From Meiothermus cerbereus DSM 11376 (lineage in GTDB: Bacteria; Deinococcota; Deinococci; Deinococcales; Thermaceae), in NCBI RefSeq assembly GCF_000620065.1, contig NZ_JHVI01000009.1:1-64000 (forward strand): 64,000 bases of DNA. Direction: 5' to 3'. The notes under the pieces are model-generated. The model was not told where the DNA came from and did not search any database. It was given only the letters and a program-made list of their open reading frames with translations. Positions 3,654 through 4,787 of the stretch are shown piece after piece. Numbering within the stretch: position 1 is the stretch's first letter; the number at the start of each line of letters is the position of its first letter. The translations under genes were made by a program, and so were the position numbers.

Positions 3654-3682
3654 TTGACTTTTGCTCGAGTTGCCATTATCGT
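3654..3682 (+). promoter_or_regulatory. Promoter of the threonine leader peptide and asd
   Basis: TTGACT at 3654-3659, 17-base spacer, TATCGT at 3677-3682. Predicted transcription start is about 3688-3690, only two to four bases before the leader-peptide ATG at 3692, so the leader ORF would be translated from an essentially leaderless RNA. Confidence 0.7.
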
Positions 3683-3691
3683 TGTTCGCAG

Positions 3692-3718
3692 ATGGTTTGG
3701 TATACCACCACTACCTAA
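3692..3718 (+). CDS. Threonine-rich attenuator leader peptide MVWYTTTT
   Basis: Nine codons including stop: ATG GTT TGG TAT ACC ACC ACT ACC TAA. Four consecutive threonine codons directly precede the stop, and a long hairpin starts at the stop codon itself. A terminator follows 27 bases after the stop and asd begins 71 bases after it. This is the arrangement of ribosome-mediated attenuation leaders such as ThrL of enteric bacteria. There is no Shine-Dalgarno; the ORF begins almost at the predicted transcription start. Aspartate semialdehyde made by Asd is the precursor of threonine, so the four Thr codons fit the regulated pathway. Function is inferred; the peptide is too short for homology. 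Confidence 0.75.
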   Translation: MVWYTTTT

Positions 3719-3768
3719 GCGGCAGCTCGCTCGAGTTGCCGCTACCTGCCAGTTGTGGCAGGTTTTTT
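3718..3768 (+). promoter_or_regulatory. Attenuator of asd: pause hairpin plus terminator
   Basis: Hairpin 1 pairs 3718-3728 with 3733-3743 (AGCGGCA with TGCCGCT, continued by a G-T pair and CTC/GAG; loop GCTC). Hairpin 2 pairs CCTGCCA (3745-3751) with TGGCAGG (3756-3762), followed by six T, an intrinsic terminator. A competing pairing of 3736-3742 with 3755-3761 (seven pairs, two of them G-U) would use the 3' arm of hairpin 1 and destroy the terminator. Ribosomes stalled at the Thr codons (3704-3715) would cover the 5' arm of hairpin 1 and favour this antiterminator. The exact switching scheme is inferred. Confidence 0.7.
3745..3768 (+). terminator. Intrinsic terminator (attenuator) upstream of asd
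   Basis: Seven-pair G+C-rich stem, loop GTTG, T6 tract at 3763-3768. It lies 20 bases upstream of the asd start, inside the asd leader, so it cannot be just the end of the PBP gene 260 bases away. Confidence 0.85.
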
Positions 3769-3788
3769 GTTGAAGAAAGGAGAGTGCT

Positions 3789-4787
3789 ATGAGAATTGGG
3801 ATTGTAGGGGCTACCGGAGCGGTTGGAAAAGAGTTGTTGAATGTGCTGGAGAAGCGCAACTTCCCGGTTTCGGAGTTGCGGCTCTATGCCTCGGCGCGCT
3901 CTGCTGGTCGAAGCCTGCTCTTTCGGGGGAAGGAAATCCCTGTGGAAGTCCTGCCCGAGACCCCCTTGCCGGTAGATGTGGTGCTGGCGAGTGCGGGGGG
4001 GGGCATCTCCAAACGCTACGCTCCTATCTGGGCTATGCAATCGGTGGTGATAGATAACTCTTCAGCATTCCGCTACGAACCAGACGTACCGCTGATTGTG
4101 CCCGAGATTAACGCACATGCCATGCGCCACCACAAGAACATTATTGCCAACCCCAACTGCACCACGGCCATCCTGCTGATGGCCCTTTATCCGCTACACA
4201 AAGCCTTCAAGGCCAGGCGGGTGATCGTGAGCACCTACCAAAGCGCCTCAGGGGCTGGCGCAAGCGGAATGGAGGAGCTGCTTCATGGCACCAAGGAGTT
4301 TCTGGCAGGGCATCCAGTTGAACACAAAACCTTTGCCTACCCGTTGCCCTTCAACGTGATCCCACAAATAGATGCCTTCCAGGAAAACGGCTATACCAAA
4401 GAAGAAATGAAGGTTTTGTGGGAAACCCAAAAGATAATGGAAGATCCGCAGATCAGGGTCTCCTGCACGGCAGTAAGGGTTCCTACCTTGCGGGTTCATT
4501 CCGAGGCCGTAACGGTTGAATTTGAGCATCCGGTCAGTCCTGAAGCCGCTCGAGAGGTGTTGCGTGTGGCCCCTGGGGTAGATCTGGTCGATGATCCGAT
4601 CGGCAGGCGCTATCCCATGCCACTTACCGCGACGGGCAAGTTCAACGTAGAGGTGGGGCGGATCCGCAAAAGCCTGGCTTTTGATAACGGGCTGGATTTC
4701 TTTGTGGCGGGTGACCAGTTGCTCAAAGGGGCTGCTTTAAATGCGGTGCAAATTGCGGAGTTGCTACAAAAGCCGATAACAACCTGA
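3789..4787 (+). CDS. asd: Aspartate-semialdehyde dehydrogenase
   Basis: Reduces aspartyl phosphate to aspartate semialdehyde with NADPH, the branch precursor of threonine, methionine and (by the DAP route) lysine. The 332-residue length is typical. Visible landmarks: nucleotide-binding GATGAVGKE at residues 7-15, the active-site Cys124 in NPNCTTA, and [12 protein letters not shown] near 155-165. The ATG at 3789 has a strong ribosome site, AAAGGAGA at 3776-3783. It stands alone, not in a threonine or lysine operon, and is preceded by a threonine-type attenuator. Confidence 0.96.

Follow-up and report, generated by a model that had tools for sequence, protein, structure and literature searches.

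A ribosome stalled on a threonine-rich leader ORF probably decides whether transcription reaches asd in Meiothermus and its relatives

Organization of the asd leader region

The window analysed here is a stretch of 64,000 nucleotides from the genome (3.03 Mb) of Meiothermus cerbereus DSM 11376. Near its beginning, on the forward strand like the leader elements described in this section, lies asd (3789..4787, ATG at 3789), encoding an aspartate-semialdehyde dehydrogenase of 332 aa. The original prediction for this DNA had spoken of a lone asd, and indeed the gene is monocistronic; its product matches TIGR01296/NF011456 and is 79-90% identical to the Asd of named Meiothermus records. Sequence reading and a consensus scan place the -35 hexamer TTGACT at 3654..3659 and, after N17, the -10 hexamer TATCGT at 3677..3682, 9 nt before the ATG of a short leader ORF (3692..3718). 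This ORF, ATG GTT TGG TAT ACC ACC ACT ACC TAA, reads MVWYTTTT and ends at TAA; its four Thr codons in a row (ACC ACC ACT ACC, 3704..3715) are the proposed sensor. The leader start is occupied by a 17-nt block, ATGGTTTGGTATACCAC (3692..3708), invariant in 20 genomes, inside which the palindrome TGGTATACCA (3698-3707) is a possible operator.

Two hairpins follow. The first, here called P (3718..3743), has 11 bp and a tetraloop, starts from the last base of the stop codon and is the proposed antiterminator. The second, T (3744..3768), abuts P and is an intrinsic terminator consisting of an 8-bp hairpin (3744-3763) and a T run (3763-3768). Downstream of T, a Shine-Dalgarno-like sequence for asd, AAAGGAGAG, was read at 3776..3784, the gene having its own AGGAG. 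The consensus scan of the leader region recovered the promoter and the terminator at these positions, the expectation per shuffled region being 0.3 promoter-like and 0.5 terminator-like sites. Promoter, leader ORF, hairpin P and terminator T in front of asd are real, and when the sequence was re-read the first description of promoter, ORF, hairpin at the stop codon and terminator proved correct base by base. In an Rfam scan of the window the only match reaching threshold was a tRNA at 457-527; at the leader the gathering score was not attained, the best local match (OmrA-B, 16.6 bits) being at chance level.

Distribution and conservation of the leader

We compared asd and its upstream DNA in 50 Thermaceae genomes and 20 other genomes of the order, and a covariance model built from 26 leaders was run on 111 genomes of the phylum. 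The same leader anatomy was found in 22/22 non-Thermus Thermaceae genomes, many of which are closely related, so that they do not count as independent cases; separate lines of evidence come from Meiothermus, Calidithermus, the families f3 and f2, and a paralogue in front of ilvA. An alignment of this kind had been proposed together with the original prediction, and in it both the Thr codons and the hairpins are conserved, in agreement with the Thermaceae setting that had been suggested; the terminator claimed before asd is present in all leaders examined. The -35 hexamer of the 22 leaders is always TTGAC(T/A/C) or TTGAT, and in Thermaceae the covariance model gave a single match in each genome, in every case at asd (E 1e-15 to 1e-24).

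The leader starts with ATG GTT TGG TAT ACC in 20 of the 22 Thermaceae. The two Calidithermus leaders (MSLARTTTT) begin instead with GTG AGC CTG GCT CGC, followed by ACC ACC ACT ACC. In the sister family f3 the leaders of three genomes read MNVWYTTTTTI, MQFWNTTTTTK and MSQRFNNTTTI. From these comparisons it is evident that the Thr run is kept in 22/22 Thermaceae and 3/3 f3 leaders, while the other residues of the peptide change.

Related leaders also occur in two genomes of family f2, G051 and G101. Both members present in G101 had gone unseen until the covariance model added them. One of them, MKFDSSTSNTTIF, precedes asd; the second, MKIQSSTPQIIIF (L239), lies before ilvA (TIGR01124) and has Ile-Ile-Ile in place of the Thr codons, and promoter, first codons, P and T are common to both. 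Since Thr is exchanged for Ile in front of a gene for isoleucine synthesis, codon identity follows the gene and its pathway, and this swap is the strongest single sign that the codons act as the sensor. The asd leader of G051 (L156) is MKLASHICNIMITP, with a single Thr codon. Besides this codon it has three for Ile, one for Asn and one for an internal Met, and it is possibly a broader sensor for the aspartate family.

In Thermus the upstream DNA contains no such leader and asd sits directly after other genes; nor was the leader found in the upstream DNA of families f4 and f5. Weak covariance-model matches in G061, G104 and G053:C216 (E 1e-3 to 7e-3) turned out on inspection not to be leaders. 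As a separate observation, further ATGGTCTGGTAYAC matches are present in some genomes.

Translation of the leader and its leaderless start

The ORF frame is kept in 28/28 leaders, with a length of 7-14 codons. The stop codon may be TAG (17 leaders), TAA (9) or TGA (2), and it shifts together with P. Three to five Thr codons, as ACC, ACT, ACG or ACA with varying synonyms, are present in 26 of the 28, as expected from the threonine leader peptide originally described. We also considered that ribosomes might read through the stop codon into asd, but rejected this, the frame relative to asd not being conserved (in frame in L005, out of frame in L002).

In the leaders that were read, the -10 hexamer lies 6-9 nt upstream of the start codon and leaves no room for a Shine-Dalgarno sequence; the 5' end of the asd mRNA is accordingly predicted 0-3 nt before the ATG at 3692, the leaderless start that had been foreseen. 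In Deinococcota, leaderless expression is signalled by TANNNT 6-7 bp upstream of an ORF (PMC12340547), and the asd leader has such a motif at about this distance and no Shine-Dalgarno sequence. Given this signal, leaderless initiation is normal here and not odd.

Hairpins P and T

P is paired in 100% of cells in the comparison, with a compensatory change in 6 of 10 scored pairs, and no shuffle attains the joint covariation of P and T. Measured against 20 mononucleotide shuffles per leader, a small number, the stability of P is about 5 SD beyond that of its own shuffled bases (median z -4.9, 38 leaders). P and T share no base and lie 0-3 nt apart. A weak 5' hairpin inside the ORF appears in single-sequence folds; it is missing from the consensus fold and does not pair with P or T.

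To place the ribosome we used the E. coli value for its front edge, +16 counted from the start of the P-site codon. With the ribosome at the first Thr codon, P is intact in silico, except for a single base in L012, L020 and L023; with the ribosome on the stop codon, the entire 5' arm of P is covered in 28/28 leaders. Counted from the first stop-codon base, the arm extends to 11-14 nt in all 28, most often to 13, which is also the assumed position of the edge. P being intact at the first Thr codon and covered at the stop, ribosome position controls P in this geometry.

The original prediction had placed the switch elsewhere, in a pairing of 3736-3742 with 3755-3761 (within 3736..3761). In this classical attenuator, 3736-3742 would become available to 3755-3761 once a ribosome has stalled on the Thr codons, and their pairing would break T. 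This single sequence allows the pairing (7 bp, 2 G-U), and most leaders allow a 5-pair core, partly G-U; comparison, however, gives it no support, as there are 0 compensatory changes in 26 sequences and pairing does not rise above that of shuffled partners. In addition, the B:D duplex has -1.9 to -7.1 against -8.0 to -10.3 for the arms of T, and a stall at the first Thr codon keeps P, which holds 3736-3742, folded. Even with the 5' arm of P masked, T exceeds the best T-free fold in stability in 25/26 leaders at 55 C, the averages being -8.6 kcal/mol for T and -4.9 for the T-free fold. We therefore consider this model improbable. By duplex energies, none of the antiterminator pairings tried (B:D, A:C, B:C, A:D) was both stable and conserved. 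The conserved element of the switch, as judged from the alignment, is hairpin P. The earlier interpretation is partly supported: it was mostly right, and its proposed switch was wrong.

Alternatively, P could be a pause hairpin for RNA polymerase that synchronises ribosome and polymerase, with T as a constitutive damping element and no threonine switch. P and T fold compatibly, and pause hairpins in leaders are established; but it leaves unexplained the Thr codons, their replacement by Ile before ilvA and the match between the arm length of P and the ribosome edge at the stop codon. Its probability appears to be similarly low.

The palindrome and a possible control at initiation

Nucleotides 3692-3708 are invariant at the DNA level in 20 genomes, beyond what the code demands, since GTT and TAT, both free to change synonymously, are included. 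In the same genome the leuC promoter carries a perfect palindrome, TTTGGTATACCAAA, between -35 and -10, and the ilvB promoter carries CGGTATACCAAA in the same place. The block may therefore hold both codons and an operator, and the palindrome could be part of a control at initiation.

This conservation at the DNA level and the near-identical palindromes of leuC and ilvB are what recommends a third explanation, in which the block serves chiefly as an operator in the DNA, TGGTATACCA, bound by a GntR-like repressor, and the peptide is a by-product. Two Calidithermus leaders and that of G056 in f3 are nevertheless without the palindrome and keep Thr codons, stop codon, P and T, none of the Thr codons, P and T being necessary to an operator. 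An operator as the main function seems to us even less probable than the classical pairing or the pause hairpin. As Calidithermus has the Thr run without the palindrome, the codon and operator functions are separable.

We also observed TTTGGTATACCA at the start of a GntR-type-looking regulator gene (L250:1496-1515; G000:C8:23314), whose product is a candidate for binding the palindrome.

Other leader peptides in the same genome

The asd leader had been treated as an isolated case, but the same genome has at least four further amino-acid leader peptides. Among loci found by family searches we count at least five in all: those of asd (Thr), trpBA and trpE (Trp), ilvB and leuC. A clear -10 hexamer adjoins the start codon in asd, trpBA, ilvB and leuC; at trpE the promoter is unclear. 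The leaderless leaders of ilvB (L182:1313-1500, G000:C15; branched-chain, MLLPSSLILVVVGLITRPTGDLV) and leuC (L251:1490-1654, G000:C17; MPTRVKQPLLSPASGV, Leu codons CTA CTA) are both accompanied by a terminator. In front of hom-thrC no such leader was seen, either by the scanner or by inspection of the upstream sequence.

The two tryptophan loci bear on the role of P. Upstream of trpB (L173/L183, G000:C53) there is a leaderless Trp leader, MRPRTPRSYKWHHQRWWRC. The trpBA leaders of Meiothermus (M..RTPRSYKWHHQRWW) show, in most genomes, a stop codon, P, 2-3 nt and T, and are unrelated in sequence to the asd leader; the recurrence of this layout supports P opposing T. The trpE locus (L180, G000:C3) has the Trp leader MLRFAHVKGWWWPG and an antiterminator hairpin, placed as P is, that overlaps the terminator. 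In folding, masking the 5' arm of this hairpin flips the fold to T, so that the trpE hairpin is a plain antiterminator, and this too supports P opposing T at asd.

Proposed mechanism

We consider it likely that the region before asd is a ribosome-mediated, threonine-responsive transcription attenuator acting on a leaderless mRNA. RNA polymerase would start 0-3 nt before the ATG at 3692, as suggested by the spacing from the -10 hexamer, and a ribosome initiating at the 5' end would translate MVWYTTTT, to which the conservation of frame and codons points. When charged tRNA-Thr is scarce, the ribosome would stall once the first Thr codon has entered the A site; according to the in silico geometry of 28 leaders its edge would be just short of P (3718-3743), which would fold. 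When threonine is plentiful, the ribosome would reach the stop codon and cover the 5' arm of P, so that P could not fold; T (3744-3768) would then form and transcription would presumably stop, the geometry of this step being that obtained above. Folded P would lie 0-3 nt before the base of T and make it harder for T to be completed within the exit channel of RNA polymerase, and asd would be transcribed. P would be an antiterminator through abutting T, without sharing bases with it, and the first half of the ORF would possibly double as a repressor operator.

Since the ribosome reaches only P, P must oppose T if the sign is the one expected for a biosynthetic gene. The least probable of the alternatives is a ribosome at the stop codon that pushes or couples to RNA polymerase and thereby reduces termination, with asd made when threonine is plentiful. 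A leading ribosome only ~15 nt behind T would suit it, but a biosynthetic gene would then be controlled with the wrong sign, and in the same genome the folding of the trpE leader follows the opposite logic.

The way in which P would hinder T, by abutting it, is the least certain step of the attenuator, and we see it as evenly balanced. The terminator hairpin is known to be completed within the RNA exit channel, and termination is prevented when the channel is blocked, as by the phage protein P7 (PMC6624301); a hairpin immediately adjoining the base of T would then need to be opened. Assuming that 6 or 8 unpaired nt are required 5' of the base of T, the cost of opening P outweighs the gain from T in 19/28 leaders at 6 free nt and in 26/28 at 8. 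In equilibrium folding P and T are never exclusive and T is folded at every ribosome position, a result that counts against the abutting-hairpin step.

A general Thermaceae design, with a self-contained antiterminator hairpin that starts from the stop codon, matches the reach of the ribosome in the length of its arm and blocks the terminator through abutting it, is a further possibility, though we lean slightly against it. By the classical rule an untranslated leader terminates; if the mechanism proposed for asd is true, termination would require translation and an untranslated leader would read through.

Comparison with known systems

Enterobacterial thr and trp leaders have a four-segment 1:2/2:3/3:4 layout and an ORF led by a Shine-Dalgarno sequence. 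The asd leader resembles them in its repeated codons (Thr or Trp) and in the terminator before the first structural gene, but differs in lacking a conserved 2:3 pairing and matching no Rfam family. It has pathway codons in a short ORF and an intrinsic terminator before the gene, and in silico the position of the ribosome alters a conserved RNA structure; an antiterminator sharing bases with the terminator, as in the classical four-segment scheme, was not found. We would thus class it under ribosome-mediated attenuation in the broad sense, and outside the classical type with overlapping antiterminator.

Leaderless leader peptides are known in Actinobacteria, among them the amino-acid leader peptides TrpL1, IlvL, LeuL and ThrL of Streptomyces lividans (PMC8079986). 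Like them, the asd leader is a short leaderless ORF rich in the regulatory codon, and, as with TrpL1, two hairpins and a U stretch come after it; S. lividans, however, belongs to another phylum, its ThrL precedes thrS without a clear terminator, and the P/T geometry is undescribed there (PMC8079986). In ilvBNC of Corynebacterium glutamicum the start codon is 1 nt from the transcription start, and the three-hairpin model likewise has serial hairpins and a ribosome that unfolds the antiterminator, but antiterminator H2 overlaps terminator H3, whereas P and T of asd only abut (PMC11857589). A similar logic operates in ilvB1 of Mycobacterium tuberculosis, where a ribosome that has reached the stop codon hides the antiterminator and leads to the terminator while a stall leads to the antiterminator; its leader sequence, though, has 166 nt and its terminator and antiterminator are mutually exclusive (PMC13236596). 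The mycobacterial polycysteine uORFs share the leaderless homopolymeric sensor ORF, but, in the account cited by PMC13236596, they are described as translation attenuation of the operon (Canestrari et al. 2020).

We found no report of leader-peptide attenuation or of leaderless leader peptides in Thermus, Deinococcus or the Deinococcota, older subscription literature lying outside the search. These leaders would then extend amino-acid leader-peptide attenuation to this phylum, where they would exemplify it on leaderless mRNAs of thermophiles and for several amino acids together. The change from Thr to Ile between the asd and ilvA leaders offers a natural experiment on the specificity of the sensor. 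Should P act through abutting T, the switch would be simple and modular (ORF, stop codon, an arm of ribosome length, terminator) and easy to design, and the asd leader could yield compact reporters of leaderless translation and ribosome position in Thermaceae.

The trpBA leader peptide

A last observation concerns the trpBA peptide. The Thermus form is RTPFAYKWRHGRYRP, downstream of which no terminator was seen. In Meiothermus and relatives RTPRSYKWHHQRWW is conserved far beyond its Trp codons, and it may be an arrest peptide or an otherwise active one.
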